Source: a virus | IMG/VR virus record: IMGVR_UViG_3300032236_000684 | Location: 1 to 37,821 of that record | DNA: 37,821 bases | Reading direction: 5' to 3' (one strand) | Part shown: positions 4,015 through 35,332 of the stretch, piece after piece | How positions within the stretch are numbered: position 1 is the stretch's first letter | Layout: each line of letters starts with the position of its first letter | Notes under the pieces: model-generated | Told to the model about the DNA's origin: nothing | Databases searched by the model: none | The model's input: only the letters and a program-made list of their open reading frames with translations | Made by a program: the position numbers and the translations under genes

Positions 4015-4349
4015 GATTCTTTTATCTTTTCTATTGCGTGAAATTCTTCAAACACTTCAGGGTATCGGGACTGCAAAAAGAATCTAAATAGCTTTATGTT
4101 TTCTCCTACGTCTTCATCCCCAACCCACATAGTTTTAGTAGCAACCATAGGGGAATTAACTGTTACGCTTGTTGTTGTGCTTCCACCAAGAGTTATACCC
4201 CCATTCATATTTGCAGATATTGTTGTAGTAGCCCCTCCTATTGTTCCCGCCATATTATTTCCTCCTCTTAAACTAAATAACTCTTTACCGATAGACCCCA
4301 AAATAATGAACCCAAAAATAACTATCAATACGGCGAATATCTTATCCAT
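4011..4349 (-). CDS. membrane-anchored hypothetical protein with probable internal second start
   Basis: About 112 residues from MDKIF. It has an N-terminal membrane segment (FAVLIVIFGFIILGSI), then RGGNN, a Gly/Thr-rich β-like stretch (TIGGATTTISANMNGGITLG), and a helical tail (FRFFLQSRYPEVFEEF). An ATG nine bases upstream (MKL) is also possible. Inside the frame, AGAGGAGGAAATAAT stands in front of ATG GCG at 4253, an almost perfect ribosome binding site that would give an 80-residue soluble form. Either the gene makes two products, or the short form is the main one. Confidence 0.7.
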   Translation of the reverse strand: MDKIFAVLIVIFGFIILGSIGKELFSLRGGNNMAGTIGGATTTISANMNGGITLGGSTTTSVTVNSPMVATKTMWVGDEDVGENIKLFRFFLQSRYPEVFEEFHAIEKIKES

Positions 4350-4662
4350 AAGTTTCATTCCATTGTCTTGGGGATACTTGAACGTAATAAAGATTCTCAC
4401 CTCGCCAATTACCCATGCCGTCTACATCCACACCCTTACCCGCAGTTCTAAGCAAGGCTATCTTGTCAGCAATAAAGTTAGGTAGTTCGCCATACTTGCA
4501 TTGGTGATACTTGGGTTCAAACAACGTACCCGCCCTCATGTCTACCTGTGTAGAGATAGCAATTTTCCCATCCATAAACTCAACACGAACAGGCGCTGGT
4601 CTTTCTCTGAATTGGTCGAACAGATTATCAATGGCTTTACTGAAGCCTTCAGGGTCTCTCAA
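4342..4662 (-). CDS. hypothetical protein, TTG start
   Basis: A 106-residue hypothetical protein without a recognised domain. The reading frame has no ATG at its head. The start is a TTG overlapping the upstream stop (TTGA), with GAGGAG about seven bases before it, encoded in the end of the upstream gene. It overlaps the next gene by a few bases. Confidence 0.7.
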   Translation of the reverse strand: MRDPEGFSKAIDNLFDQFRERPAPVRVEFMDGKIAISTQVDMRAGTLFEPKYHQCKYGELPNFIADKIALLRTAGKGVDVDGMGNWRGENLYYVQVSPRQWNETYG

Positions 4663-4817
4663 AATGGAGCCTCCTCAAAGTTATATGGTGCTGGTTTAGG
4701 TTTGCGAACGCACTTGAATGTCCAACCTGTGCGTTGCTCGGTTATATGTTTAGCTTCTTCTTGACGACCCACAATACGCATGACTTCTCCGTTCTCATCT
4801 TTGATAACGTAACTCAT
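4659..4817 (-). CDS. small hypothetical protein, first gene after leftward promoter
   Basis: A 52-residue protein (MSYVIKDENGEVMRIVGRQE start; FKCVRKPKPAPYNFEEAPF end). It is the first gene after the promoter at 4850-4878. Its last codons supply the ribosome binding site of the next gene (GAG GAG of EEAPF). Function unknown; a small β-sheet protein seems likely. Confidence 0.7.
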   Translation of the reverse strand: MSYVIKDENGEVMRIVGRQEEAKHITEQRTGWTFKCVRKPKPAPYNFEEAPF

Positions 4818-4849: not shown

Positions 4850-4878
4850 ATTGTATTAGTTTGTTTTGGGTTTGTCAA
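4850..4878 (-). promoter_or_regulatory. leftward sigma-70 promoter
   Basis: On the minus strand TTGACA (4873-4878) and TACAAT (4850-4855) are separated by exactly 17 bp. It overlaps the stop of the 4875-5684 gene and would start transcription near 4843, just ahead of the 52-residue gene and the nuclease-polymerase operon. The -35 is preceded by TAT, as at the other leftward promoters. Confidence 0.85.
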
Positions 4879-5684
4879 ATAAGAACGAAGTAGGTGTTTT
4901 CCCCAGCCCGATAACCGATCTCTGGAAGTAACTTGTCTTTCTCAACAAGTTTGAGAAGAGCGATATGGTTTCTGGTTCTCTCAGGTAGCGCCTCAACAGC
5001 GTCTAACTCCTGCGCTTCCAAAGCACGACCATTCGGGATAAGGATAGTCTTGTTGTCCCTAAACATAACCGTATCAAACTTAGGCTTAATTTCTGCCTTG
5101 CGTTGCATCTCTTCGTATGCCTCAATCCCTGCTGCCGCACTTTTAAATGCCTCGGTTTTGAATTGAACCCCAATAGATGTTAGGTATTTAATTTCTTCAT
5201 AGATATCTGCAGGATTTATTCTGAATGGATACACCGCCTTACTATCTTCTTGCGCCCATCTTTCATGCGCTCTCTCTGCATCACGTCTACCTTTAGCAGA
5301 TAACTCATGCCACTCGAATGGTTGCAACACTTCCATCGCAATCTTTACTGCCTTCTTCAAGTCCTTAGTTCTGCGTGACGAATGTTCATTACCCCAATGC
5401 CCGAATCTATCGTTCTGAATCTTGCGTGAAGTAATCTTGTATTCCTTATCGTTACGGCTACCATAAGTCCACTCGACAACACCAACCATATCTACTGACT
5501 CATCACCAATAAAGCGTGTGTCATGGAATCTTAACTGCCAAAACTCCTCGGGTTTATATGAGTGTGGAACGGCTGATACTGTCAGACAGTATCCTAACTT
5601 AGCGTGCTTTAGTTCTAACGCTTCGAGCATCTGAACCACAGGCTCAGACATCTTGGTCTTGTCTATATCATTTAGTTGTAGCAT
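4875..5684 (-). CDS. hypothetical protein with internal palindromic operator copy
   Basis: A 269-residue protein with no recognised domain. It is mixed and charged, with DAERAHERWAQEDSK in a likely helix and a conserved-looking C-terminus (GYRAGENTYFVLI). The ATG chosen (MLQLND) has GAGGAG in front; a longer reading frame upstream would overlap the preceding gene heavily. One of the 17-bp palindromes lies inside it, near codon 35 (YCLTVS), in inverted orientation. It is the last gene before a strong internal promoter. Confidence 0.8.
   Translation of the reverse strand: MLQLNDIDKTKMSEPVVQMLEALELKHAKLGYCLTVSAVPHSYKPEEFWQLRFHDTRFIGDESVDMVGVVEWTYGSRNDKEYKITSRKIQNDRFGHWGNEHSSRRTKDLKKAVKIAMEVLQPFEWHELSAKGRRDAERAHERWAQEDSKAVYPFRINPADIYEEIKYLTSIGVQFKTEAFKSAAAGIEAYEEMQRKAEIKPKFDTVMFRDNKTILIPNGRALEAQELDAVEALPERTRNHIALLKLVEKDKLLPEIGYRAGENTYFVLI
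5576..5592. repeat. 17-bp palindrome, copy 1 (inverted orientation)
   Basis: ATACTGTC-A-GACAGTAT: two perfect 8-bp arms around one base. It is the only copy with A at the centre of the plus strand. It lies within the 269-residue gene and encodes part of YCLTVS. Confidence 0.95.
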
Positions 5685-5853
5685 TTGTTTTCTCCTCGTC
5701 GTAAGATTTAATCCAAGCAAGAGCATCATTCAGTTCCCTAAACAACGGAGACTGCACACCCTTACCTTTCCATTGATAACTTAATTCGTCACTAATCAAC
5801 CACCTATCACTGCCCCACTTCGCTACTCGTTCATGGACTTGTTCTAGGTTCAT
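5668..5853 (-). CDS. small hypothetical protein
   Basis: 61 residues with many Trp and charged residues (KWGSDRWLISDELSYQWKGKG, and a predicted helix ELNDALAWIKSYDEEK). GGAGGATACCG precedes the ATG. It overlaps the preceding gene by 23 bases and the next by 17. No domain recognised. Confidence 0.7.
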   Translation of the reverse strand: MNLEQVHERVAKWGSDRWLISDELSYQWKGKGVQSPLFRELNDALAWIKSYDEEKTNATTK

Positions 5854-6013
5854 CGGTATCCTCCACTACGTCATAAATATCCCAATCGACTTCGATTGGC
5901 TCGTCTTCTACCTCTACCTCCCACATCTTTTCCCTTGCTTCTTCCCATGTATCGGCTTCAACATGGACTAGGAAATACTCCTTTCTAATAATCCAACCTT
6001 TCCATTTCTTCAT
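5831..6013 (-). CDS. small hypothetical protein (acidic, EADTWEEA motif)
   Basis: 60 residues from MKKWKGW. A β-strand pair (WIIRKEYFLVHVEA) is followed by a helix (DTWEEAREKMWEVEVED), a layout common in small phage early proteins. AGGAGG lies nine bases before this ATG; an ATG at 6022 is too close to it. Function unknown. Confidence 0.7.
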   Translation of the reverse strand: MKKWKGWIIRKEYFLVHVEADTWEEAREKMWEVEVEDEPIEVDWDIYDVVEDTDEPRTSP

Positions 6014-6014
6014 A

Positions 6015-6179
6015 TCACTCATCCTCCTCGTCAAATGCTTCAAATTCTAAATTCATAAATCCTACATCTAGACCCTCGTCTAAACACTCCTGATACGCTA
6101 ACTGCTCCGCCTCTTCAATACTCTTTGCCTTAATACTTAAATTCCATGTACCCGTTGCCGTAACTGTGTAGTTTTTCAT
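6015..6179 (-). CDS. small hypothetical protein related in layout to its neighbour
   Basis: 54 residues: strands (NYTVTATGTWNLSIKAKS), a helix (IEEAEQLAYQECLDEG) and an acidic end (FEAFDEEDE). The strand-helix pattern with EEAE resembles the next gene's EADTWEEAREK, so the two may be distant paralogues. AAGGAGGGAG precedes the ATG, and the stop region supplies the next gene's ribosome binding site. Confidence 0.7.
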   Translation of the reverse strand: MKNYTVTATGTWNLSIKAKSIEEAEQLAYQECLDEGLDVGFMNLEFEAFDEEDE

Positions 6180-6189
6180 CACTCCCTCC

Positions 6190-7029
6190 TTAAAACATAT
6201 TTAGAATTTCATCTACCTTAGACTTAACGCTGGTTCGGATAGCTTCACTCTCACGAATATCTGAGGCATCCACACCACTCAAGGCTTTCTCTAACTTCTG
6301 ACGCATCTGTTCCATCTTCGGGTCATTAGTTATATTGAGGCTTGTTAGGAGAGAGCAGAGTTCGCTTGCGTTGGTAATAGTAGAATCCCAAAACTTCTTT
6401 TTATTCTCATCTGTGTAGTCCATACGGTCACTCAAATGAGTCAGGGTTTCATGCAACCTATCCCATGCGTCTTTCATAGCGTCAGCTAACTTAGACTCGT
6501 AGTAGTCTTTGTATTGCTGTTGTAGTTCGTTCTTAGCCTGTTCCTCAACATCTATTCTGAAATCACCCGCATCAGGCACAGGGCAGAACACATACTTGAA
6601 TCTAAACTTGCCACGCAGTTCTTCGGCTGTGGGATATTCCCCTCGGTCAAACAAATCGCCAAGCGTAAACGCAGAAGATGATACCAGTTGCGGATACTCT
6701 ACAAGAAAGTCCTCTACCGCTTGGTTGTATTGGTTCTCGAAGTTACCCAGCGTAGCCTTGTAATCAAAAAAGGATTTCATAGGTAGTAAGCGTGAGCCAC
6801 CATCTGACCAAGGTAAAGTCTGTTGATAGTTCCAAGTCCGCACAGCAGTTGCAATCTTCTGCACTTTCTCTAGCTTGTCTGACCCAGCCAATAACTTCTT
6901 GTGATAATTACCAGCCCGAGCCTTGGTGCTTTTAGTTGCATCAATTTCTTCGGATACTTTCTTATCCATCTTGCGACCTGTCCACATAGAAATGTTTAGG
7001 TCTACTAACATAGCGTTGCTTCCAATCAT
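6190..7029 (-). CDS. DUF3150-like protein
   Basis: A 279-residue, mostly helical protein. The pattern LNISMWTGRKMDKKVSEEI, then RTWNYQQTLPWSDGGSRLLP and YPTAEELRGKFRFKYVFCPVP, resembles the DUF3150 family of phages and plasmids, which has no known function. The C-terminal third is probably coiled coil. It lies in the same leftward transcription unit as the VWA-metallopeptidase and AAA+ ATPase genes upstream, which suggests a joint function (inference). ATGA junction with the upstream gene; GGGAG supports this start. Confidence 0.78.
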   Translation of the reverse strand: MIGSNAMLVDLNISMWTGRKMDKKVSEEIDATKSTKARAGNYHKKLLAGSDKLEKVQKIATAVRTWNYQQTLPWSDGGSRLLPMKSFFDYKATLGNFENQYNQAVEDFLVEYPQLVSSSAFTLGDLFDRGEYPTAEELRGKFRFKYVFCPVPDAGDFRIDVEEQAKNELQQQYKDYYESKLADAMKDAWDRLHETLTHLSDRMDYTDENKKKFWDSTITNASELCSLLTSLNITNDPKMEQMRQKLEKALSGVDASDIRESEAIRTSVKSKVDEILNMF

Positions 7030-7268
7030 TTTAATTCTCCCTCTAGGTTAAGCAGTTTGCACATTGACTGCGCTTCGTGCTTGGTTAAACTTCTACATAC
7101 TAGGTTTGCGCCAGTAGGCATATTAGATAAATGACAGGGTTTATAAACATCTCTATAAACACCAGCCCACATCTCAGGTCGATGTATCACTACATCAGTT
7201 AGCCTAATAACACACCATTGACTACTATCTTCTACTGCTCTCTTCTCCCACCACTTCTTTCGTATCAT
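7026..7268 (-). CDS. small hypothetical protein of a tandem family
   Basis: 80 residues. It has a β-like part (QWCVIRLTDVVIHRPEMW) and a C-terminal helix (SLTKHEAQSMCKLLNLEGELK). The end resembles the ends of the two other small genes nearby (7449-7715 and 7715-7921). The ATG overlaps the upstream stop as TGATG, with GGAGGAG in front; a GTG just upstream is less likely. Function unknown. Confidence 0.72.
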   Translation of the reverse strand: MIRKKWWEKRAVEDSSQWCVIRLTDVVIHRPEMWAGVYRDVYKPCHLSNMPTGANLVCRSLTKHEAQSMCKLLNLEGELK

Positions 7269-7462
7269 CACTCCTCCATCGGAACAATCCTCATCTTTAA
7301 CTTAATACTGTCTGACAGTATTTGGTCGCACATAACCTCCATAGCATTTGAATGGGTCATGGTCACACCTAACTGCGACTCCATCTTCTTCTTTGCATCT
7401 ATAAACTTCTTCTTAGCTTCTGTCTTTAACATCAGCGTTTCAAATCCTCTAGCTATTGCCAT
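7268..7462 (-). CDS. small hypothetical protein encoding a palindrome copy (ILSDS)
   Basis: 64 residues, basic and helical at the N-terminus (LKTEAKKKFIDAKKKMESQLG), then SNAMEVMCDQILSDSIKL. The ILSDS stretch is the translation of the 17-bp palindrome. A small DNA-binding protein is possible but no motif proves it. It overlaps its upstream neighbour by 14 bases. Confidence 0.7.
   Translation of the reverse strand: MAIARGFETLMLKTEAKKKFIDAKKKMESQLGVTMTHSNAMEVMCDQILSDSIKLKMRIVPMEE
7305..7321. repeat. 17-bp palindrome, copy 2
   Basis: Perfect ATACTGTC-T-GACAGTAT followed by TTGG. It lies within the 64-residue gene and is read there as ILSDS. Confidence 0.95.
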
Positions 7463-7715
7463 GATTATTTCCTTCCATTAGTTTTTTAATTGCTTGTGCT
7501 TCTCTGTGTGTTGTGTGTTCTGATACAACCCTATACTTTTGTGTATGTTTATTCCACTTTAGTATTTGCCACCTACTTTTTGCTTTCATATGTATTGGCA
7601 TATCAAACCTTTCTATATAACCCATCCCCTTTCTTAATATGTTTCCAGCCATAACATTTTTTGTATTTGCCATAGACTCAGCCAACATCTTTGTGTAATT
7701 CCTTGCGTATGCCAT
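7449..7715 (-). CDS. small basic hypothetical protein of the tandem family
   Basis: 88 residues, strongly basic. The C-terminal half (SRWQILKWNKHTQKYRVVSEH, then HREAQAIKKLMEGN) is a short sheet plus helix like that of the genes on either side. Function unknown. Its start overlaps the upstream stop by one base. Confidence 0.72.
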   Translation of the reverse strand: MAYARNYTKMLAESMANTKNVMAGNILRKGMGYIERFDMPIHMKAKSRWQILKWNKHTQKYRVVSEHTTHREAQAIKKLMEGNNHGNS

Positions 7716-7921
7716 CAGCCCTCCATGATTTTTAAGATTGTATCTGCTTGTTGTTTAGTAAGGTAGTCACCGACAATATCCGCCGAGCCATTCCATCTCT
7801 GCACGATAATCCGATAACCACCTCGCCATACATCTACTATGTATCTGTCTTTCATATCGTAGTCGTCATAAGCTACCGCCTGACCCTCTCGTTTCATTGG
7901 TGCATCTGCGAAGTTTCCCAT
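7715..7921 (-). CDS. small hypothetical protein of the tandem family
   Basis: 68 residues: strands (RYIVDVWRGGYRIIVQRWNG) and a helix (YLTKQQADTILKIMEG). Clearly the same layout as the 88- and 80-residue genes downstream. A TAATG junction couples it to the metallopeptidase-VWA gene. Function unknown. Confidence 0.74.
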   Translation of the reverse strand: MGNFADAPMKREGQAVAYDDYDMKDRYIVDVWRGGYRIIVQRWNGSADIVGDYLTKQQADTILKIMEG

Positions 7922-9108
7922 TAGTCTTGTATCCTCACGCTAACACCAACAGGCGCAACCACATGACTAGTCATGCCCCAAAACACAGGATGTTTCCAAT
8001 CACCCCACCCATCTATATAGCCGTCAGTCAGCACGATTACACACTCAGGGTTTAGCTTGTGTTGCTCAATGTATTTAGGAATACACTTGGCGCTTGTGCC
8101 ACCGCCACCCATAGGTTTAGTAGAGGACATGATTGCTTCATAGTCACCTCGGTCATACTTCTCATGAGCGCATACCTCTGTGTCCCAATACATCAGATCA
8201 ATACCCTCGGGTTGCACATGGTTGCATACAGATAGAAGTTCGCCTAGGAATTGCCCGACCTCAGCCTGTCCGATAGAGCCTGACATATCAATCGCTACAA
8301 CGATACGACCCACCGCCTCACCGATAGCACTTGGCATATAGACATTCTGATCTACCCACCTACGGTTTGGTCTGCGCCATGTAGAGTTATCCTTGTCGTT
8401 GCAGATAGAGTTCACAAAGTCAGCAAGTACCTCACGCCAGTTCACCTTAGCTTCCATAGCCTCAGTTATCTCTCGTGGGACATTACCGTTTAGCTTACCC
8501 GCCAGTAATGCGCCTTGTCTTAATGCTTGATCGACCTCTCGGGCAAGTGTTTGTTTCTCATCCTCCGACATTTCATCGGCACTTTCCCAATCGTGTTCGT
8601 CAAAGCCCTGCCCACCTTGCGATTCCTGATCGCCACTACCATCGCCTTTTCCACCCTTACCTCCTTGTTGTTGTTCGTCTTTGAGCATACGGAATACCTC
8701 ACCCGCATCCATACCTCGATACTTCTCATCTAAGCAACCGCCCTCGGGTAGCGTCACATTATTACCTTGTGGGTCTGAGTCGTGAATCATTAAGTTAATA
8801 ACGAAGTCACAAGCCATGTTCGCTAGCTGTGGGTTTTGTTTGTAAAGATGTTTCCATACAGTTGTATGACGGAAAGCCTTGTGTAGATTCTCGTGAAGTA
8901 TCAAGCCCTTCAAGTCAGAGTCTTTCATGCCGTCTACAAACTTACGACCATAGTAAGTATTCTTACCATCTGTGCAAGCCGTTGGTATATCATCACTTAC
9001 CTCAGTCTTACCGAGCATGAAGATACCCGAATACAAACAATACTTAGGGTCATTCATCAAAGCCACATGGGACTTCTGCACTCGTTGTTCTGCGCTTAGT
9101 CTTGCCAT
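7921..9108 (-). CDS. putative metallopeptidase with VWA-like domain (DUF2201-type)
   Basis: 395 residues with two parts. The N-terminal half holds a zinc-peptidase motif HENLH (72-76) in ILHENLHKAFRH, as in the DUF2201_N family. A Gly/Gln-rich acidic linker follows (about 145-185). The C-terminal half is a VWA-like domain with a MIDAS site: DMSGS (274-278), a Thr in GGGGTSA (about 338) and Asp in VLTDGY (362). Such proteins pair with MoxR/CobS-type AAA+ ATPases, one of which lies just upstream. The substrate is unknown. It overlaps the zinc-binding small gene by 13 bases. Confidence 0.9.
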   Translation of the reverse strand: MARLSAEQRVQKSHVALMNDPKYCLYSGIFMLGKTEVSDDIPTACTDGKNTYYGRKFVDGMKDSDLKGLILHENLHKAFRHTTVWKHLYKQNPQLANMACDFVINLMIHDSDPQGNNVTLPEGGCLDEKYRGMDAGEVFRMLKDEQQQGGKGGKGDGSGDQESQGGQGFDEHDWESADEMSEDEKQTLAREVDQALRQGALLAGKLNGNVPREITEAMEAKVNWREVLADFVNSICNDKDNSTWRRPNRRWVDQNVYMPSAIGEAVGRIVVAIDMSGSIGQAEVGQFLGELLSVCNHVQPEGIDLMYWDTEVCAHEKYDRGDYEAIMSSTKPMGGGGTSAKCIPKYIEQHKLNPECVIVLTDGYIDGWGDWKHPVFWGMTSHVVAPVGVSVRIQD

Positions 9109-9308
9109 TTTGTTTTACCTACCTTTCTTAAGTTTGGTATGTGTTGTGGTTCTAGTGGGATATATACATTTTCTTGGCACGATACTTGTCGGCAATATAT
9201 CTCTGACGCAAGTTCATCATTAAATACACACCGCCTACAATGGTCGTAGTCATCTTCGGGGTCAGCCACATATATCATTCCCTTTAGTTGTATCCATTTA
9301 AGTTTCAT
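9096..9308 (-). CDS. small cysteine-rich, probably zinc-binding protein
   Basis: 70 residues. DYDHCRRCVF and a later C-x5-C pair (IYCRQVSCQENVY) suggest one metal site. Small proteins of this type are common in phage early regions, function unknown. GGAGG lies just before the ATG and the 17-bp palindrome just upstream of that, so the palindrome is in this gene's leader. Confidence 0.75.
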   Translation of the reverse strand: MKLKWIQLKGMIYVADPEDDYDHCRRCVFNDELASEIYCRQVSCQENVYIPLEPQHIPNLRKVGKTKWQD

Positions 9309-9318
9309 ATATCCTCCG

Positions 9319-9335
9319 ATACTGTCTGACAGTAT
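9319..9335. repeat. 17-bp palindrome, copy 3
   Basis: Perfect copy filling the gap between the AAA+ ATPase stop, which it directly abuts, and the ribosome binding site of the next gene. Confidence 0.95.
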
Positions 9336-10454
9336 TTAGAACAACCATTGGTTATCAGTAGCCCACTTCACAAACTCTTTGTTGCTTACTGCCATAGCTT
9401 GCTTGTTGCTAGACTTAACGATTGAACGGGCAAACAACGCTTGTAATTCCTTATCCAATCGGTCTGCATACTTGAGCCACTTGGGTAGGGTTTCCTTATC
9501 GACACGAGTAATAGCCGAGAACACCAAGATACATTTAGCTACCGCATCATCAGGGACTTTTGCGCTTGCTGGGGATTCACAGATAGCTTCCCATGTAGGT
9601 AGCTTATCCACCACAGTAAAGAACGCTTGCATATCACGAGCCGCAGATTCACCGATAGTGCCAGCCAATGCACTGATAGTCACGCTATCACCTAAGTCAC
9701 CACGCTTTTTGGCAATATGACTAGCTTTCTCAAGTGAACGAGGAGTCACGAACGCTGACTGTCCAGCACGAGTTGGGTTAAAGATATATGGATTGTCTTT
9801 CTGAGCCGAGTCAGTATACGACTCGAGTGCATGGGGGAATTGTTTAACCCACGCAATAATCTCAGGCGCAATATCATTCTCAACAGCCCACGCACCCCAA
9901 GAGTCTGCATCTAGCGAGCCATCAGCACCGAACCCAGCATGAGGTTTACGCACAGTAACAAAACAAACACGATTACGAGCATGAGCCTCGAGGCTATCAC
10001 CTACACCATCAGTTGCTAGATTAGTTGTACCGAACACAATCGAACCCTTGGGTAAATAGTCATCACCGATACGCTTTTCTAACATGAGAGTAAGCAAGAC
10101 ATTCTTAACCGCTTTCATAGCCTTACCAATCTCGTCGAGCATGACGATTACAGGTTTACCAGTGTGCATTTTGAATCTTGCGTTTGGCGCAAACTTGGTG
10201 ACTTTAAGAGTTGATGCCAGTTTTTCTCGAACCACCTCCTCTGTATAAGGTAAAGCAAAGTCGCCTAGGTCTAATAAGGTGCAGTCAATGTAGGCTACCT
10301 CGTAGTCAGGATAGCGTTTAGCTACCGCCTTGAGCATAGAGGACTTACCAATCCCCGGCTCACCCTGACCAATGATAGTTACATCAGAGCCGACAGTTGC
10401 GATTGCATTTGCAAACTCGTTTAAAGATAAAGAACTTCCGAACTTGATACTCAT
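9336..10454 (-). CDS. MoxR/CobS-type AAA+ ATPase
   Basis: 372 residues. Walker A GEPGIGKS (31-38), Walker B VIVMLDE (102-108) and a sensor-1-like GTTN (142-145) define an AAA+ ATPase. The general layout fits the MoxR/CobS branch, whose members remodel partners through a VWA protein. Here that partner is likely the metallopeptidase-VWA protein two genes downstream. AAGGAGA stands before the ATG. Its leader contains a strong promoter and one palindrome copy, so the block has its own control. Confidence 0.92.
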   Translation of the reverse strand: MSIKFGSSLSLNEFANAIATVGSDVTIIGQGEPGIGKSSMLKAVAKRYPDYEVAYIDCTLLDLGDFALPYTEEVVREKLASTLKVTKFAPNARFKMHTGKPVIVMLDEIGKAMKAVKNVLLTLMLEKRIGDDYLPKGSIVFGTTNLATDGVGDSLEAHARNRVCFVTVRKPHAGFGADGSLDADSWGAWAVENDIAPEIIAWVKQFPHALESYTDSAQKDNPYIFNPTRAGQSAFVTPRSLEKASHIAKKRGDLGDSVTISALAGTIGESAARDMQAFFTVVDKLPTWEAICESPASAKVPDDAVAKCILVFSAITRVDKETLPKWLKYADRLDKELQALFARSIVKSSNKQAMAVSNKEFVKWATDNQWLF

Positions 10455-10487
10455 ATACTTCTCCTTGATTTAAAATTAAAAAACCAA

Positions 10488-10504
10488 ATACTGTCTGACA
10501 GTAT
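10488..10504. repeat. 17-bp palindrome, copy 4 (AAA+ operon leader)
   Basis: Perfect copy 47 bases downstream of the -10 box of the 10552-10580 promoter, within the leader of the AAA+ gene. Confidence 0.95.
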
Positions 10505-10551
10505 TTGGTACGACCCCACTAACTTCTACTACTTTTATAATTTATACTACT

Positions 10552-10580
10552 ATTATAAACCTATACTACCTCTGTGTCAA
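10552..10580 (-). promoter_or_regulatory. leftward sigma-70 promoter of the AAA+/VWA operon
   Basis: TTGACA (10575-10580) and TATAAT (10552-10557), both consensus, with a 17-bp spacer. The -35 context TATTGACACAG is shared with the 13.7-kb promoter. Transcription would begin near 10545 and pass through palindrome copy 4. Confidence 0.9.
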
Positions 10581-10589
10581 TACCCCGAC

Positions 10590-11543
10590 TCACAAGCAGT
10601 TAGTTGCTACCACACCCAACGCTACCTCTTTTGTTGTATATACATCTGCTACTTGTTTGATAATGTAGTTGATGCGATTGTCCACAGTCTTATAGTCAAA
10701 CTGTTCTTCTCTCACAACCATTTGTTCCATGCGCTTGTTGCCGTTGTAGTCGGTGCGTTCTACATCAACCGTTTTTATTGTGCGAGTTTCCTTAGCCTGA
10801 CTACCCGCACAGATTATGCAAAGAAGTTTTGGATATAGCGTTTCATCTGCGTTGCACATAGCCTCATACAATTCCTTAGCAGTTGAGTTGCTTACTGAAC
10901 CTGACAATCCCCATCTGTCATACTTATTGCCGTTTAACTCATAGCCCTTGCGACCATAGTAATCAGGCTGACCAGTTGCGTATTGTTCCACTAGGTCATT
11001 ACTTAACCAACCATCAGCCAGTTTGAGCATGATCTTGGCATAGTCCCTAAAGCCCTTGAGTTTATCCCTCGCCGTTTTCATCTTGGTTCGGTCAATAACT
11101 TTTTGTTGCAGTTGAATAGGGTTCTCGATTGTGTAGGTGTCAGTCATGCGTGAGTAATTAAATACCGTTGCCTTCTTGCTGTCCATCACATACGAATGAG
11201 TCTTATATTCAACCCATATCTTGTTGTATTTCTTATAGCACCGCATATCTCGTGGTAGATACCGATTGATAAACTCTGCCGTTGTTGGGGTTTCGTAGCC
11301 GTCAGTCTTAATATGTAATGCACCATTAGCTAAATACAATACGCAGTCAGTACGGTATAGGTGTGCGCCGTATGCCTCGCCACCCTCTACATCAAGTGCG
11401 CCCTCCTCTACTACATAACGCTTGACGATTTGTTCCCAATCCCTGCGCCGTTGTGCGATTGGTCGTACCTCTGTTGCACGACCCCTGATAGGTTTCGTAT
11501 TTAGATAGCGTTGTTTGAAGTGTTCGAATTTCTCTAAACTCAT
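10590..11543 (-). CDS. hypothetical protein
   Basis: 317 residues with no recognised domain. Basic, with many Tyr and Lys. Notable stretches are AQRRRDWEQIVKRYVVEEGA near the N-terminus, YLPRDMRCYKKYNKIWVEYK in the middle, and CIICAGSQAKETR near residue 245. TAGGAGA precedes the ATG. It is the last gene before the AAA+ promoter, and palindrome copy 5 is in its leader. Function unknown. Confidence 0.8.
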   Translation of the reverse strand: MSLEKFEHFKQRYLNTKPIRGRATEVRPIAQRRRDWEQIVKRYVVEEGALDVEGGEAYGAHLYRTDCVLYLANGALHIKTDGYETPTTAEFINRYLPRDMRCYKKYNKIWVEYKTHSYVMDSKKATVFNYSRMTDTYTIENPIQLQQKVIDRTKMKTARDKLKGFRDYAKIMLKLADGWLSNDLVEQYATGQPDYYGRKGYELNGNKYDRWGLSGSVSNSTAKELYEAMCNADETLYPKLLCIICAGSQAKETRTIKTVDVERTDYNGNKRMEQMVVREEQFDYKTVDNRINYIIKQVADVYTTKEVALGVVATNCL

Positions 11544-11566
11544 TTGATTCTCCTAAAGATGTTGTA

Positions 11567-11583
11567 ATACTGTCTGACAGTAT
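11567..11583. repeat. 17-bp palindrome, copy 5
   Basis: Perfect copy in the 44-bp gap between the 91-residue membrane protein gene and the 317-residue gene, ahead of the latter's ribosome binding site. Confidence 0.95.
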
Positions 11584-11587
11584 CGGG

Positions 11588-11863
11588 TTAATTAAACAGC
11601 CAATAAATAAAACAAAATGCACCACCTACAACTACACCTACCCATGCAAACCCAAGGAACGCACCAGCTAAAAACTCTAGGGCTTCTTCCCAGTCGGTCT
11701 TGCTTCGCCAAAACGCAGTAGCATAGTTAGCATCTCGGAACGCTTCACTTACACTTCTGTGGGTCTTGTTACTGTGGATATACTGAGCAGGGTCTGTTTC
11801 CCCCAAGTATTGCCACTTGGCAGTTTGCTTGCCTTTAGTTTTGTTCAGTCGTTTTGTCGCCAT
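11588..11863 (-). CDS. small membrane protein
   Basis: 91 residues: a basic N-terminus (KRLNKTKGKQTAKWQYLG), a charged middle and a strongly hydrophobic C-terminus (AGAFLGFAWVGVVVGGAF and CFIYWLFN) that would anchor it as a tail-anchored protein. AGGAGAG precedes the ATG. It overlaps the upstream gene by 29 bases. Function unknown. Confidence 0.72.
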   Translation of the reverse strand: MATKRLNKTKGKQTAKWQYLGETDPAQYIHSNKTHRSVSEAFRDANYATAFWRSKTDWEEALEFLAGAFLGFAWVGVVVGGAFCFIYWLFN

Positions 11864-12116
11864 GTTTCTCTCCTATATATAGTTCGTTAATGTTCTGCTC
11901 GTAAGTCAGGTAGTCTTTCCAAGGTCGGCACTCCTCACCCCAAACATAAAACAACTCTGTCATTACTTCGCCCACCAGTACCCGCCTTGCCTCCGTCGAG
12001 TCCGCCTTTTGTAGCTTTAGCGATAACTCTAGTGGATCGTTGGGTTTGGGTCTTTTCAAGGGCTTGTCCGTCACAGTCTTGGGTTTGCCCATGCGATACT
12101 CGGTAACTCTAATCAT
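11835..12116 (-). CDS. small hypothetical protein
   Basis: 93 residues with a basic N-terminus (RMGKPKTVTDKPLKRPKP) and helical middle (LELSLKLQKADSTEARRVL). Its ribosome binding site AAGGAGGAG lies in the end of the sigma-like gene, with which it overlaps. No known domain. Confidence 0.7.
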   Translation of the reverse strand: MIRVTEYRMGKPKTVTDKPLKRPKPNDPLELSLKLQKADSTEARRVLVGEVMTELFYVWGEECRPWKDYLTYEQNINELYIGEKHGDKTTEQN

Positions 12117-12387
12117 TCAACTCCTCCTTTTCATACATCAGTTCATACTCGCTACTGTCTGACAGTATTTCCCCCTCGGTTGGTTTGATGGGCTTGGTAT
12201 ATCTTGGGTCGCTGAAGAAATTGTCAGGGTTGTAGCCCTTCTTGCGTAGTATCTTCCTAGCGTTTCGTAATGCGGACTCCTCGATTTGCCTTACCCTCTC
12301 CCTTGTGCAACCCATCACATCTGCTATCTGCTCAAGGGTCATTACAGGTTTAAAGAGCATGGGTTGTTTGCGTTGATAGCTAGTCAT
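12109..12387 (-). CDS. sigma-70 region 4-like helix-turn-helix protein
   Basis: 92 residues. Residues about 16-47 (MTLEQIADVMGCTRERVRQI, then EESALRNARKILR) are a near-textbook sigma-70 region 4.2 helix-turn-helix, the part that reads the -35 box. No other sigma regions are present, so it is not a full sigma factor. It may act as a transcription regulator or anti-sigma/co-sigma factor. The C-terminal tail includes EILSDSSEY, the translation of palindrome copy 6. ATGA overlap with the upstream gene. Confidence 0.88.
   Translation of the reverse strand: MTSYQRKQPMLFKPVMTLEQIADVMGCTRERVRQIEESALRNARKILRKKGYNPDNFFSDPRYTKPIKPTEGEILSDSSEYELMYEKEELND
12152..12168. repeat. 17-bp palindrome, copy 6 (one mismatch)
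   Basis: CTACTGTC-T-GACAGTAT: the first base differs. It lies inside the sigma region 4-like gene and is read as ILSDS. Confidence 0.93.
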
Positions 12388-12590
12388 GTCGTTCTCTTTG
12401 GGTTGGTGGTTGCTAACTCTTTCGGGTTATGTATGTATTGATACGCACCCTTATTAAATGGAATGGCTACTGTGAACCCCTCTGCTACTGCCCGAGCCAC
12501 ATCAATACCGCACTCAATACAAAACTTGTAGCCCAACTCCCACCGAGCCATAGGGTACTCATCTCCACAACATCTGCATATATTCTTCAT
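12384..12590 (-). CDS. small zinc-ribbon-like protein
   Basis: 68 residues. CRCCGDEYP and CIECG form a four-cysteine zinc site near the N-terminus, followed by a mixed tail. Small zinc-ribbon proteins are common in phage early regions, and the role here is unknown. GAGGAG in the end of the upstream gene serves as ribosome binding site; ATGA junction. Confidence 0.75.
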   Translation of the reverse strand: MKNICRCCGDEYPMARWELGYKFCIECGIDVARAVAEGFTVAIPFNKGAYQYIHNPKELATTNPKRTT

Positions 12591-12793
12591 TTGTAATGCT
12601 CCTCTATCAATTTAAGGTTGTGCTTGGCAATCACTTGCCATAAGTCTTTGTTAATTAAACTTCTTTTATTCCACTCGGTACTGTCCGACAGTATTTCGTT
12701 GCAGTATCTCTCGATACCCATAAGCAAAAAAGCCTCACCCACGCTATCAGGGCTTAGCTTCTTAATTAGTGCTTTGTTGGTTTTGCGTGTCAT
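12587..12793 (-). CDS. small hypothetical protein encoding a palindrome copy
   Basis: 68 residues, helical and basic. RYCNEILSDSTEWNKRSLI includes the translated palindrome (ILSDS). AGGAGC precedes the start, which overlaps the upstream stop as ATGA. No domain recognised. Confidence 0.7.
   Translation of the reverse strand: MTRKTNKALIKKLSPDSVGEAFLLMGIERYCNEILSDSTEWNKRSLINKDLWQVIAKHNLKLIEEHYK
12678..12694. repeat. 17-bp palindrome, copy 7 (centre C)
   Basis: GTACTGTC-C-GACAGTAT: first base and central base differ from the consensus; the other seven bases of each arm stay paired. Inside the 68-residue gene. Confidence 0.93.
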
Positions 12794-12939
12794 GAAATGC
12801 TCCTTATATAGGCTTGCGCCTGTGCATATGTTCTAAAAAACTGGGCTGACCAAGGTTTTGGACTCCAACCCATTGTGCCCACCGAATTTACAGGTCTAAC
12901 TACCCAACCTGTTCTAATCTGCTCCGCTACTAATCTCAT
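12790..12939 (-). CDS. small hypothetical protein
   Basis: 49 residues from MRLVAEQ. GWVVRPVNSVGTMGWSPKPW followed by AQAQAYIRSI looks like a short sheet and helix, like the tandem family at 7.0-7.9 kb. The ATG overlaps the upstream stop as ATGA, with GGAGAG in front. Longer in-frame extensions would cover the upstream gene. Confidence 0.68.
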   Translation of the reverse strand: MRLVAEQIRTGWVVRPVNSVGTMGWSPKPWSAQFFRTYAQAQAYIRSIS

Positions 12940-13088
12940 GAGTTCTCTCCTAATATAAAACCATAAGTAAACGACGAAAACACCAGCCCGACCAATGCAA
13001 GGATAGGAATTTCTTGCCATACCCAACTGATACAGGCGCACATAATCGCCACGCATAAACTGATTGCACCAACAAAATAGATATTCAT
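12936..13088 (-). CDS. small membrane protein
   Basis: 50 residues, nearly all hydrophobic: two membrane segments (IYFVGAISLCVAIMCACISW and IPILALVGLVFSSFTYGFIL). GGAG precedes the ATG, which overlaps the upstream stop. It follows another tiny membrane protein. Function unknown; a holin-like role is possible but nothing else supports it. Confidence 0.7.
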   Translation of the reverse strand: MNIYFVGAISLCVAIMCACISWVWQEIPILALVGLVFSSFTYGFILGENS

Positions 13089-13186
13089 TTCAATAACTCC
13101 CAAATGGTATGGTTTAACGACACAAAAAAGATATAGGTGAAAACACCTACTAAAGACCACATTACTACCTTAGCTAGTTCAGCCAT
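13085..13186 (-). CDS. tiny membrane protein, first gene of the leftward operon
   Basis: 33 residues with one membrane segment (WSLVGVFTYIFFVSL). It has the best ribosome binding site of the operon (AAGGAGGTGTATATG) and couples to the next gene by ATGA. It is the first reading frame after the 0.5-kb leader that begins at the 13.7-kb promoter. Confidence 0.65.
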   Translation of the reverse strand: MAELAKVVMWSLVGVFTYIFFVSLNHTIWELLK

Positions 13187-13216
13187 ATACACCTCCTTTT
13201 AAAAAACACTCAGTCA

Positions 13217-13238
13217 GTCAGGCTATTTCTAACCTGAC
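13217..13238 (-). terminator. attenuator-like hairpin before the first leftward gene
   Basis: On the minus strand GTCAGG and CCTGAC pair around a 10-base loop; about ten bases later comes a run of six T. The gap between stem and T-run is longer than in a normal intrinsic terminator, so termination is uncertain. Confidence 0.3.
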
Positions 13239-13356
13239 CTCAAAATGCTCTTTGTTTGTTTGCCCTCTGCTAGTTTCTCGCAGTTCTTGTTAGAGGTTAA
13301 GGGCATGGGTAGGGCATGGTGCGTGTGGTCAGGTTGGTTATGTCTTGAAGGCTCTG

Positions 13357-13373
13357 ATACTGTCTGACAGTAT
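13357..13373. repeat. 17-bp palindrome, copy 8
   Basis: Perfect copy in the leftward leader, between boxA and the first gene. Confidence 0.95.
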
Positions 13374-13552
13374 TTCACCCAGCTATATAAATAGACACAA
13401 CTTCACCCCACACCTTGCTACTACCGCAGAGATACTGCTCGCCTGACGATAACTAACCGCCCGCTTAAATGGGCTATCGAGGCTACGCCTACTCTGCACT
13501 CAGCATTGGTTTGGGGTCTGTATTCCCCCGCACCGCTAAGCATTTACCTAAT

Positions 13553-13564
13553 TGTTAAAGAGCG
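13553..13564 (-). promoter_or_regulatory. rrn-type boxA antitermination element
   Basis: The minus strand reads CGCTCTTTAACA, 11 of 12 bases matching the bacterial rRNA boxA TGCTCTTTAACA bound by NusB-S10. It is followed by AT as in rrn leaders. It lies about 150 bases after the 13.72-kb promoter, before the long leftward operon. Confidence 0.7.
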
Positions 13565-13653
13565 ATACTGTTTTGTAGTAGTTAATAACTTGTTGGAGAA
13601 GCTACCCTCTCGTTGCACCCTTGAACTTAATCGTGGTGTTTCCTGTTACTAAG

Positions 13654-13670
13654 ATACTGTCTGACAGTAT
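13654..13670. repeat. 17-bp palindrome, copy 9 (main leftward promoter leader)
   Basis: Perfect copy, 49 bases downstream of the -10 box of the 13.72-kb promoter. This matches the 47-base distance at the AAA+ promoter. Confidence 0.95.
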
Positions 13671-13719
13671 TTGGTTTTGATTGGGTTCGAACACGACCTT
13701 TTCTCGACCTTACCCCTCT

Positions 13720-13748
13720 ATTATAGACCTATTATAAAGCTGTGTCAA
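13720..13748 (-). promoter_or_regulatory. main leftward sigma-70 promoter
   Basis: TTGACA (13743-13748) and TATAAT (13720-13725), both consensus, with a 17-bp spacer. The context TATTGACACAG equals that of the 10.55-kb promoter. It should drive the boxA leader and the leftward arm. Confidence 0.92.
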
Positions 13749-13862
13749 TAGGGTAGAACTCGGTTGGGGTTTGGAGTGTTTAAGTTAATAGTTGGTCGGT
13801 TTTAAGTTTGCAGTTGGTTTCTTTTGTAAAAACTGGTATCACATTTGTTCACTCCTCTTGTA

Positions 13863-13879
13863 ATACTGTCTGACAGTAT
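13863..13879. repeat. 17-bp palindrome, copy 10
   Basis: Perfect copy followed by TTGG, about 115 bases upstream of the main leftward promoter and inside the TGTTCACTC cluster. Confidence 0.95.
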
Positions 13880-14058
13880 TTGGTTTACTCTGTTAAGTTA
13901 GGTAGGGCTTTGTTCACTCAAATGTTCATTTTGTTCAGTCATGTTCACTCATCAAGGAACAAGGTATTTTTTATTGGATTCAATGGGTTAGGTGATTTTA
14001 ATATACCATGTTCACTCGTGAACAAAAGTATGACACCCTACGAAAGGGTCTTTCTGTC

Positions 14059-14075
14059 GTACTGTCTGACAGTAT
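14059..14075. repeat. 17-bp palindrome, copy 11
   Basis: GTACTGTC-T-GACAGTAT, first base changed, within the non-coding cluster. Confidence 0.94.
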
Positions 14076-14276
14076 TACTTAACATTGTAAAGTGAGTTGA
14101 AATTTTTGGGAGTCATACATTTAAAAAATGAGTGAACAAGTGAACACTACTAATATTTATAATTAAATAAAGAAAGAAAGAGTATATAGAACAAGGAGTT
14201 GCGAGTGTTGCAACGCACAAAAAGTCTGTTCACTCACCAGTGAACATGAGTGAACACAGTGAACAAAGTTGATTCG

Positions 14277-14293
14277 GTACTGTCTGACAGTAT
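14277..14293. repeat. 17-bp palindrome, copy 12
   Basis: GTACTGTC-T-GACAGTAT, first base changed, at the right edge of the TGTTCACTC cluster. Confidence 0.94.
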
Positions 14294-14387
14294 TTTGCTT
14301 GCCTCGCCAACTTCGCCCGCACCCTCGCTGACCACGACATCACGCCCCTTCAAAAAGAAAAAGTAATATCAAAAAGAATTTAAAACC

Positions 14388-14402
14388 GTCGGCTTCGCCG
14401 AC
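14388..14402 (-). terminator. second hairpin downstream of the 14472-14978 gene
   Basis: GTCGGC-GAA-GCCGAC on the minus strand, followed by GGTTTTAAATTC. A six-pair stem with a short T-tract, possibly a backup terminator behind the stronger one. Confidence 0.45.
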
Positions 14403-14433
14403 CTAGATGACACCAGTTCCCTAAAAAAGGGCG

Positions 14434-14457
14434 AAAAAAAACCCCGCCGAAGCGGGG
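14434..14457 (-). terminator. rho-independent terminator of the 14472-14978 gene
   Basis: The minus strand reads CCCCGC-TTCG-GCGGGG followed by eight T: a stable tetraloop hairpin with a U-tract, about 15 bases after the stop codon. Confidence 0.92.
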
Positions 14458-14471
14458 CTGATACTGGGTGA

Positions 14472-14978
14472 TTACTTGCTTTCACCCTCGAAGTCATCAA
14501 GAGCATCAATCAGATAAGACGCTAAGCTTGTAGTCTTATCATTCTCTTTAAACTTATTAAACATACTACGCAAACCCTTGACAATATCGTCAAGCTTTGC
14601 ATCACCCTTAAACTTTACGCCCGTTGTAGGTGCTACCTTACCCTTACCAGCTTGTGAACCCTTGCTGGTTTTGGCGCGGTACGCGTTCATACTGAACGGC
14701 TTGTTTTCGTTGTAAGCTTTGCGGATCGCTGTCATGTAATTTTTAACAGTTTGCTCACTCAATACTTTGCCGTCTTTACCCTTTGATGCTTTCAAGGTTT
14801 CCTGAATACGAACCATGCGAGCATCACCGCTTTTAACTGTACCCAATTCAGTACCCTTGCTGGCGGTACGCAACTCTTTAATGCCGTTGTCGATAGTGGC
14901 TTGAATCGTTGCGCCAATCACAACATCTTTAGCAATTTGAATTGCGATTTGTTCTTGCTTTGTATATTTAACAGTCAT
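14472..14978 (-). CDS. hypothetical protein with its own promoter and terminator, candidate regulator
   Basis: 168 residues, basic in the middle. An N-terminal helix (YTKQEQIAIQIAKDVVIGAT), a segment with a helix-turn-helix-like look (KVLSEQTVKNYMTAIRKAYN), a Lys/Gly linker (KTSKGSQAGKGKVAPTTGVK) and a helical acidic tail. It stands alone between the control cluster and the rightward arm, with a promoter and strong terminator; AGGAG precedes the ATG. A palindrome copy lies just upstream of its promoter. This makes it a candidate for the palindrome-binding protein, but no domain is recognised. Confidence 0.82.
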   Translation of the reverse strand: MTVKYTKQEQIAIQIAKDVVIGATIQATIDNGIKELRTASKGTELGTVKSGDARMVRIQETLKASKGKDGKVLSEQTVKNYMTAIRKAYNENKPFSMNAYRAKTSKGSQAGKGKVAPTTGVKFKGDAKLDDIVKGLRSMFNKFKENDKTTSLASYLIDALDDFEGESK

Positions 14979-15038
14979 TTTTAAAACTCCTAATAAGGAT
15001 ATCGTCGTAAGTCTTTATTGCCCCGAACCGATAACTCT

Positions 15039-15067
15039 ATTGTGCCTACAACATAGCGCTATGTCAA
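15039..15067 (-). promoter_or_regulatory. leftward promoter of the 14472-14978 gene
   Basis: TTGACA (15062-15067) is followed after 17 bp by CACAAT (four of six with TATAAT). The -35 context TATTGACA is shared with the other leftward promoters. Palindrome copy 13 lies 18 bases upstream of the -35 box. Confidence 0.7.
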
Positions 15068-15085
15068 TAGCTATTTGATTTTCCC

Positions 15086-15102
15086 GTACTGTTTGACAGT
15101 AT
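15086..15102. repeat. 17-bp palindrome, copy 13 (most diverged)
   Basis: GTACTGTT-T-GACAGTAT: changes at the first and eighth bases. It is upstream of the promoter of the 168-residue gene and is the rightmost copy. Confidence 0.92.
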
Positions 15103-15716: not shown

Positions 15717-16214
15717 ATGGAGGCACCAAAATTCACAATAAAAAAAGTGGACATCAGAGTCCAAGCCAATCAAACCACACTACTTTTTCTACAAAGGAAG
15801 ATACTTCCGGAGGATACGCCGTACAAACCGGATCGGGGCCATTGGTGGATTGCGTATGCGGAATGTGGAAAGCCTGTCGCTTTTGCGGGTATGGTGCGCT
15901 CGATGAGTTGGAACGATACAGGTTATTTATGTAGAGCCGGTGTGTTAGAAGGCTTTAACGGACATGGACTTCAAAAGCGTTTAATCAAGGTAAGACAAGT
16001 GCAAGCACGTAAGCTTGGATGGAATTGGTTAATTACTGACACTACAAATAATCCTGCATCATCAAACTCCTTGATTTCTTGTGGCTTTAAGATGTATACT
16101 CCAGCAAACCCGTGGTCTTTCAGAAATGCTTGTTATTGGAAATATAAGGTAAACCAAGATGCCGTTCAAAGACGAGAGCGTAAGAAAAAGCAAACACAAA
16201 GCGTACAGCCGTGA
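15717..16214 (+). CDS. GNAT family N-acetyltransferase
   Basis: 165 residues. Strand β4 (PVAFAGMVR) is followed by the acetyl-CoA loop GFNGHGLQKRL (about 79-89, a variant of Q/R-x-x-G-x-G/A), then LGWNWLITDTTNNPASSNSL and CGFKMY, as in RimI-like GNAT enzymes. The acceptor is unknown; phage GNATs may modify host or phage proteins. GGGGGATAGAG precedes the ATG. The last 56 bases overlap the HNH gene. Confidence 0.85.
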   Translation: MEAPKFTIKKVDIRVQANQTTLLFLQRKILPEDTPYKPDRGHWWIAYAECGKPVAFAGMVRSMSWNDTGYLCRAGVLEGFNGHGLQKRLIKVRQVQARKLGWNWLITDTTNNPASSNSLISCGFKMYTPANPWSFRNACYWKYKVNQDAVQRRERKKKQTQSVQP

Positions 16215-16515
16215 GCATTACCTAAAGAACAAAGACAAACAAATAAAAGCCAACAGCGAGTATAAGAAGAAGCGGCGCCAAGAATGGGCGGAATATAAAG
16301 CAACTCTCTCCTGTACCAAATGTGGGTTCTCACACCCAGCAGCAATAGACTTTCACCACGAAGACCCAAGCCTAAAAGAAGGCAACATTCACAGATACGT
16401 TGCTAATGGGCAGTTCAAAAAAGCATTTGAAGAAATTAAAAAGTGCGTAACGCTCTGCGCAAATTGTCACCGAATACATCACTACGACGAAAAAGTGTTA
16501 CACTCCAGTCAATGA
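16159..16515 (+). CDS. HNH endonuclease near terminase
   Basis: 118 residues. A basic N-terminus (KSKHKAYSREHYLKNKDKQI) is followed by zinc ligands CTKC (52-55), the core DFHHEDP (64-70) and CANCHRIHH (100-108), giving a ββα-metal HNH fold. HNH proteins encoded beside terminases often stimulate terminase cutting at the packaging site (known for HK97-like phages). The start MPFKDE overlaps the acetyltransferase gene in another frame by 56 bases, which is long but gives the usual N-terminus for this type. Confidence 0.88.
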   Translation: MPFKDESVRKSKHKAYSREHYLKNKDKQIKANSEYKKKRRQEWAEYKATLSCTKCGFSHPAAIDFHHEDPSLKEGNIHRYVANGQFKKAFEEIKKCVTLCANCHRIHHYDEKVLHSSQ

Positions 16516-34450: not shown

Positions 34451-35320
34451 ATGACAAGTGCATATACAACTAATTTAAAAATACAACAGATTGGTAATGG
34501 TGAACAATCTGGTGTTTGGGGTACTACGACCAATACAAACTGGACGTTGATAGAACAGGCAGTAGCTGGGGTTGTAACCATTAATATGGGAAATGCCGAC
34601 TACACCCTGACTAATCTAAACGGGGTTTCAGACGAGGCTCGCAACATGGCTATTGTTGCAACAGGTACAAATTCAGCAATTCGTAAAATAGTAGCCCCCC
34701 TAAACCAAACTAAGTTATATATAGTTTCGAACCAAACTACAGGTGGATATGCAATTACTATTGGCGCTTCTACAGGTTCTATTGTTACTATCCCAAACGG
34801 CGTTACCGCCCAAGTATATTCTGATGGCACAAATTTTTATTCTGCCCAAACTGGCTCGGCTGGTGACTTTAATGTAAACGGAACTTTAACTGCTTCTGGT
34901 ATTGCTGACGTTGGTAATTTGACGGTTTCAGGTACTATGGGAGTTACTGGAAATGCAACAGTTGGTGGTACTTTAGGGGTTACTGGGGCAGCTACATTTG
35001 CTTCTGATTCTGCTTTTACTTCTACAGGTGCTTTGACCATTCCTGATGGTTCAACTGCACAAAGACCCGGTACACCCACAGCCGGTATGATTCGTTTTAA
35101 CAATACTGTACCTACTACTTTTGAAGGTTATGATGGTGTAAAATGGGGCAGTATTGGTGGCGGTGCTTCTGGTGGTGGGGTTGTTTACGAGAATGCTCAA
35201 AATCTTACTACTAATTACACTATGACAACGGGTTATAACGGTGAGTCTGTTGGGCCAATTACTATTGATTCTGGCGTGACTGTTACTATTCCTAGCGGCA
35301 GCCGCTGGGTAATTTTTTAA
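34451..35320 (+). CDS. tail fibre protein with shared C-terminal module
   Basis: 289 residues. N-terminus MTSAYTTNLKIQQIGNGEQS and VWGTTTNTNWTLIEQAVAGV is a common phage fibre start. The middle contains short repeats (NLTVSGTMGVTGNATVGGTL, GVTGAATFASDSAF) and FNNTVPTTFEGYDGVKWGSI. The last residues (SVGPITIDSGVTVTIPSGSR ending in WVIF) equal the C-terminal module of the 455-residue fibre. Probably part of the host-contact apparatus. Confidence 0.82.
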   Translation: MTSAYTTNLKIQQIGNGEQSGVWGTTTNTNWTLIEQAVAGVVTINMGNADYTLTNLNGVSDEARNMAIVATGTNSAIRKIVAPLNQTKLYIVSNQTTGGYAITIGASTGSIVTIPNGVTAQVYSDGTNFYSAQTGSAGDFNVNGTLTASGIADVGNLTVSGTMGVTGNATVGGTLGVTGAATFASDSAFTSTGALTIPDGSTAQRPGTPTAGMIRFNNTVPTTFEGYDGVKWGSIGGGASGGGVVYENAQNLTTNYTMTTGYNGESVGPITIDSGVTVTIPSGSRWVIF

Positions 35321-35332
35321 GGATATACAAAC

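Follow-up and report, generated by a model that had tools for sequence, protein, structure and literature searches.

A three-gene module of an AAA+ ATPase, an HExxH-VWA protein and a DUF3150 protein, linked to replication genes in an uncultured phage and shared with bacterial plasmids

The stretch of DNA analyzed here, referred to as the window, spans 37,821 nucleotides (positions 1-37,821 of virus record IMGVR_UViG_3300032236_000684) and is a phage contig in which the terminase, portal, and major capsid genes run rightward from approximately 16.5 kb. Judged by terminase, its nearest isolates are DSL-LC04, the Pelagibacter phages HTVC027P and HTVC023P, and the MinM2/Pag-Yong1 genome. Three large genes on the minus strand are the subject of this study. 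They encode a 372-residue AAA+ ATPase of the AAA_5 type, a MoxR-like partner (9336-10454), a 395-residue protein in which an HExxH zinc-peptidase domain is fused to a VWA domain bearing a metal ion-dependent adhesion site (MIDAS) (7921-9108), and a 279-residue DUF3150 protein, the putative third subunit (6190-7029). An earlier sequence-only reading had described them as one leftward unit with four or five tiny genes, and this description holds, with the tiny genes numbering five. An open reading frame (ORF) of 70 residues lies between the ATPase and VWA genes (9096-9308; three loci including the window). The other four, also on the minus strand, comprise 68 residues (7715-7921; window-specific, with no homologue in the other loci examined), 88 residues (7449-7715; variable, two loci including the window), 64 residues (7268-7462; kept within the window's own clade, 22 loci), and 81 residues (7026-7271; overlapping the DUF3150 gene, five loci only). 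Because the ends of the tiny ORFs overlap one another or the large genes, the three large genes and the five tiny ORFs likely form a coupled operon.

The ATPase was identified from Pfam, PHROGs, and its residues. It scores 31.2 bits against AAA (cut-off 21.2) and 25.7 bits against AAA_5 (cut-off 22), and it matches phrog_1297 (ATPase) at 1.9e-52. Walker A (G31..GK37), Walker B (D107 and E108), N145, R162, and R239 are kept in 97-100% of viral homologues; the conservation of these residues, as well as of the HENLH and MIDAS motifs described below, was counted over 73-79 such proteins. The Walker A/B, sensor, and arginine residues are all in place, and a VWA partner gene adjoins. The MoxR-type assignment made from the sequence alone survives in part. 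It rests on the AAA_5 match and the gene partnership, whereas AAA_3, the Pfam model usually tied to MoxR, gives 13.2 bits, below its cut-off of 27. Similarly, the bpMoxR domain of the MoxR-vWA-beta-propeller ternary conflict systems gives 12.3 bits in Pfam, against a cut-off of 27. In the plasmid ATPases described below, Walker B reads mostly D-D in place of D-E.

The VWA protein, assigned from Pfam, its residues, and an AlphaFold model, matches the DUF2201_N metallopeptidase family (107.6 bits; cut-off 23.2) and the VWA-like DUF2201 family (43.1 bits; cut-off 26.4). Walker A and B, HENLH, and the D-x-S-x-S/T/D residues of MIDAS are all present, as the sequence-only reading had proposed, and they are essentially invariant in viral homologues. 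Across 79 viral VWA proteins, H72, E73, H76, H81, N97, D101, and N105 together with MIDAS residues D274, S276, S278, T338, and D362 are invariant or 99% conserved. HExxH, H81, D101, and the MIDAS residues are also kept in N4, phage G, jumbo phages, and most plasmids, and H81 and D101 are candidate third zinc ligands. These residues suggest that the protein may be a zinc-dependent protease. The VWA half of the AlphaFold model matches VWA folds with Z scores up to 13.0 and a root-mean-square deviation of 2.2 over 130 residues, a comparison that bears on this half and hardly on the peptidase half; Foldseek also returns Rea1-MIDAS. The protein matches phrog_1314, named HNH endonuclease, at 7e-87, and a Pfam scan up to E 1 found no HNH domain in it. 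The name is a misnomer for the HExxH metallopeptidase-VWA family. Many GenBank phage records copy this name, or homing endonuclease, for the HExxH-VWA protein.

The DUF3150 protein was recognized from Pfam, the viral alignment, and an AlphaFold model. It matches PF11348 over residues 5-254 (29 bits; cut-off 24.9) and contains seven residues that are invariant in the viral alignment, among them D22, K44, R64, T71, R80, and R265, which are nearly invariant in plasmids as well. It is not obviously an enzyme. The model (predicted local distance difference test score 82.7) consists of a small beta part and long helices, for which Foldseek found no significant match in the PDB. A relationship to known helical bundles was considered and rejected, since structural alignments gave only generic helical bundles with Z scores up to 9.8, within the chance range for helical proteins. 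PF11348 missed the protein in MinM2 and in plasmids, where a profile built from the viral loci detected it. No mention of DUF3150 was found in the literature searched. A place for DUF3150 among CobS/CobT-like genes of IncA/C plasmids was considered and rejected, since it was not found in the 98 of 144 kb of pRA1 that were searched.

The co-occurrence of the three genes, which the sequence-only reading offered as a check on its proposal, was borne out: they are present together in phages and plasmids, and their sequences diverge together. Scanning IMG/VR with the VWA protein yielded 80 loci, giving 81 VWA-bearing sequences with the window. With profiles built from the window proteins, the ATPase was detected in 76 of the 81 and DUF3150 in 74, most of the misses being contigs cut off within the module. 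Starting from DUF3150, a second scan of this type gave 41 loci, with VWA and ATPase present wherever the contig reaches far enough. The order DUF3150-ATPase-VWA occurs in 43 loci, that of the window (ATPase-VWA-DUF3150) in 27, and ATPase-DUF3150-VWA in one. Because it is kept across diverse contigs, the arrangement is far beyond chance. In GenBank phages, the VWA family matches 725 of 50,697 records and the ATPase 554; DUF3150 is found in three only. These three records (65,014 bases each; under the host names Synechococcus, Planktothrix, and Planktothricoides) yield the same matches and appear to be a single genome. In the stretches examined of N4, phage G, MIJ3, S-TIM66, an rV5-like phage, SBP1, and 121Q, the ATPase/VWA pair is present with no DUF3150 match.

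The complete set also occurs on plasmids. A search with the DUF3150 protein of a Simplicispira plasmid yielded 44 plasmid records, almost all of them from Burkholderiales, and the counts for the main genera equal those of the VWA search. In the five plasmids read, the three genes directly adjoin one another in the order ATPase-DUF3150-VWA, and conjugation genes lie directly downstream of the operon in two of the five, likewise in pATCC31433. Two more plasmids and a Bryobacterales metagenome-assembled genome carry the three-gene set, and a scan of genome contigs with the plasmid DUF3150 returned two loci only. Like the window, the Burkholderiales operon has all three proteins contiguous, with DUF3150 aligned end to end at approximately 30% identity. 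In contrast to the window, it has the ATPase-DUF3150-VWA order, is often beside conjugation genes, and in some copies is without HExxH. Since the set makes sense on a plasmid, it is unlikely to be only a virion-assembly device.

To describe the co-divergence of these proteins, distances from 25 dereplicated loci were corrected for DNA polymerase distance by partial correlation. The coefficients were 0.85 for ATPase-VWA, 0.72 for VWA-DUF3150, and 0.61 for ATPase-DUF3150. Correlations of 0.58-0.65 with the module proteins were obtained for g4875, a linked 284-residue protein of no known family (4875-5729, minus strand). For the resolvase, an equally linked control, the correlation was approximately zero. 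Module pairs still correlate within gene-order groups, with a permutation p of 0.001 for all three in one group and of 0.001, 0.022, and 0.051 in the smaller group, where the signal is weaker for DUF3150. Collectively, these correlations support a co-evolving unit.

Across loci, the module strand also carries genes for a Holliday-junction resolvase, a DNA polymerase, a PD-(D/E)XK exonuclease, an HNH protein, an SNF2 helicase, and a Gam-like protein, while terminase and portal lie on the opposite strand. In the window, DNA polymerase and resolvase run leftward with the module. Just before the ATPase gene is a perfect sigma-70-type promoter, TTGACA-17-TATAAT, matching at 12 of 12 positions (10552-10580, minus strand). 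Most loci of the window's clade have a 12/12 promoter ahead of the ATPase, and matches of at least 11/12 precede DUF3150 or the ATPase in a number of other loci, against a background of 0.08 per kb. Because promoter-like matches overall are no commoner in the module region than in shuffles, the evidence rests on the perfect score and its conservation. The host-type promoters suggest that the module may be expressed early. A second perfect sigma-70 promoter occurs at 13720-13748 on the minus strand. For N4-type hairpin promoters used by a virion RNA polymerase, PF00940 found none in nine relatives, and the control also returned none anywhere. Temperate control was considered and rejected, as no tyrosine integrase was found in ten virus records and MinM2.

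The leftward block is punctuated by palindromes. Thirteen copies of ATACTGTCAGACAGTAT (≤3 mismatches) lie within 5576-15102 and none elsewhere in the window, against 0.12 matches expected by chance. One, a 27-bp palindrome followed by TTTTTT that is terminator-like or operator-like, lies between the promoter and the ATPase start (10483-10509, minus strand); a palindrome follows the second promoter at about the same distance. Other copies are found directly after the ATPase stop, before the 70-residue ORF and the VWA gene (9319-9335), upstream of the 81-residue ORF and the DUF3150 gene (7305-7321), upstream of the linked gene g10590 (11567-11583), and inside the coding region of g4875, where a copy is kept in relatives (5576-5592). 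Eight more, all in the leftward block between 12152 and 15102, begin at 12152, 12678, 13357, 13654, 13863, 14059, 14277, and 15086. Relatives have other perfect dyads at like positions, with more than 15 sequences over approximately 60 loci, and MinM2, which has the three-gene set, carries twelve copies of its own dyad. Of 52 ATPase genes, 36 have a dyad between -100 and +60 relative to the start, and so do 37 of 52 DUF3150 genes, where chance gives 13%. No dyads were found in the HTVC027P and DSL-LC04 stretches, which are without the module, in the N4, G, and jumbo stretches, which are without DUF3150, or as repeated palindromes in the two plasmid stretches tested. Because the lineages are few, a tie between dyads and module is only suggestive. 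The palindromes were also considered as RNA hairpins. Single-mismatch copies comprised two G-U, four A-C, and ten other changes, a small sample that gives no hint of RNA pairing, although the 10483-10509 copy resembles a terminator. The palindromes are likely sites of a putative phage DNA-binding dimer with drifting specificity. Cluster O mycobacteriophages carry unexplained 17-bp perfect dyad repeats scattered in a leftward operon and thought to be bound by a dimeric protein (PMC4351075). The window dyads are likewise many, perfect, and in a leftward operon, but they are closely tied to gene starts and vary in sequence between lineages. A small protein with a sigma-70 region 4-like helix-turn-helix (12109-12387; 36.5 bits) is a candidate palindrome regulator.

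Several known systems resemble the module in part. RavA-ViaA, NorQ-NorD, and CbbQ-CbbO share with it an AAA+ motor and a MIDAS-bearing VWA partner. To our knowledge, their VWA proteins have no fused HExxH domain and no DUF3150 partner. A described counterpart is the homologous adjacent pair of N4 gp24 (AAA ATPase) and gp25 (vWFA), core genes of N4-like phages, with profile scores of 94 and 130 bits. This pair keeps Walker A K37/S38, Walker B, the sensor, HExxH, and the MIDAS residues, with S aligned at G31 of the window ATPase, and the N4 segment read shows no DUF3150 match and no repeated palindromes. In the group 2.2 jumbo phages (PMC7824862), the pair likewise forms a two-protein core with the peptidase domain N-terminal to VWA; that account mentions no DUF3150, and the window genes lie in a replication block instead. 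The ATPase/HExxH-VWA pair was thus already known from N4-like and jumbo phages, of which the sequence-only reading was unaware. The literature searched contained neither the three-part version that includes DUF3150 nor its occurrence on plasmids, its dedicated promoter, or the dyad punctuation.

Because dozens of uncultured viruses carry the set, as do large bacterial plasmids, the module probably has its role within the infected cell and not in the building of particles. We give about even weight to the more specific reading that it is a machine that remodels or cleaves a target early, within the infected cell, instead of serving virion assembly. The three proteins would then be parts of a single machine that mobile elements carry. 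The AAA+ ring would bind and hydrolyze ATP, and the MIDAS site of the VWA protein would couple the ring to a target or dock the VWA protein on the ring, as in MoxR/VWA systems. The HExxH domain could cut or clip the pulled target, and DUF3150 would be a dedicated third subunit, most likely an adaptor or scaffold fixing the target. Expression would be switched on early from the module's own host-type promoter under a dyad-binding regulator, and the target would be linked to replication, recombination, or host takeover, not to the virion. Remodelling of a protein complex is the best-supported reading. Of the roles floated by the sequence-only reading, host-protein remodelling and degradation of a defence factor may apply, and nothing supports metal-chelatase-like action. 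We also entertain, as a tentative extension, a three-subunit unfoldase-protease common to phages and conjugative plasmids that might clear or reshape a host protein early after DNA entry so that foreign DNA replicates, with DUF3150 as target adaptor and lineage-specific operator networks in phages.

Four points weigh against an early machine of this kind. Phages such as 121Q carry the two-gene pair among structural genes, which suits assembly. Joint transfer of the linked genes, and not contact, could underlie the co-divergence. The early timing is read from promoter pattern and gene position alone. Finally, VWA proteins of Variovorax and Paraburkholderia plasmids have lost HExxH and kept MIDAS, and the neighbouring ATPases retain the Walker A lysine. 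Since HExxH is lost in these two plasmid lineages with Walker and MIDAS residues kept, some systems can do without cutting; the central activity may be remodelling, with cutting as an addition to it.

Virion assembly or maturation, in which the ATPase/VWA pair would be a chaperone and the HExxH domain would process structural proteins, was proposed by Iyer et al. 2021 for the MoxR and metallopeptidase-VWA pair of jumbo phages, citing the tail chaperone of the archaeal virus ATV (PMC7824862), and the setting of the 121Q pair favours it. In this group, it appears unlikely. The module sits in the replication block on the strand opposite to the virion genes, the N4 homologues are middle genes (PMC4193335), and the full three-gene set occurs on plasmids that make no virions. 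Moreover, DSL-LC04 shares TerL (56%), capsid (63%), and portal (43%) with the window, and further head genes are homologous, but its whole record contains no VWA match. Because these virion genes are shared without the VWA gene, the module appears not to be needed for this virion type. An early role in the cell is therefore favoured over assembly, since the module sits with replication and recombination genes and a capsid-sharing relative lacks it. Collectively, these results weigh against virion assembly in this group and point to an in-cell job common to phages and plasmids.

A machine that pulls out and cleaves a host factor directed against phages or plasmids would explain why phages and large plasmids, exposed to the same host defences, have the module in common. 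The strong host-type promoter, suggesting early expression, and the absence of the module from close relatives, as expected of accessory genes, are in keeping with such a counter-defence protease. However, five proteins compared with the anti-phage defence components of PADLOC gave no credible match and no defence-related family, the protease motif is gone from some plasmid copies, and the module is nearly fixed in the phage group and co-divergent with its neighbours, unlike rapidly swapped anti-defence genes. We regard this explanation as doubtful.

It is improbable that the three genes have separate functions and merely share one replication operon. All lie in a long one-strand block, and linked genes share history; nevertheless, the set stays together in two gene orders and in an unrelated plasmid context, has its own promoter, and co-diverges beyond the equally linked resolvase. 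Cofactor or metal insertion, as by CobS/CobT or Mg-chelatase I/D, shares the general AAA_5 and VWA pairing but is very improbable, as neither a catalytic subunit of a chelatase nor a cofactor enzyme lies in the conserved neighbourhood, the VWA protein belongs to the DUF2201 family, with an active-site-like zincin, and not to CobT/BchD, and no resemblance was found between DUF3150 and chelatase subunits. The pair of ATPase and HExxH-VWA protein is widespread and unexplained in phages, and the finding of a fixed third subunit that plasmids have as well, together with a dedicated promoter and a relative without the module, makes it a testable unit.

Two linked proteins travel with the three-gene module in most loci. 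The first, g4875, is present in 72 of 81 loci, on the same strand in 61 by clustering, and its profile also matches a smaller adjoining ORF (4345-4674). The second, g10590 (10590-11543, minus strand), is a 317-residue protein of no known family present in 55 of 81 loci; it precedes the ATPase in one of the two gene orders and follows the VWA gene in the other. Among the sequence records, CP057073.1 is listed as an E. coli plasmid of 137,565 bases and may be a phage genome, its length and match resembling those of rV5-type phages. Elsewhere in the window, a GNAT acetyltransferase-like ORF (15717-16214) and an HNH endonuclease ORF (16159-16515) overlap just ahead of the terminase genes, and the right-hand genes at 35155-36161 contain glycine-codon-rich repeats of the GGTGGTGGT type, perhaps encoding tail or fibre proteins.

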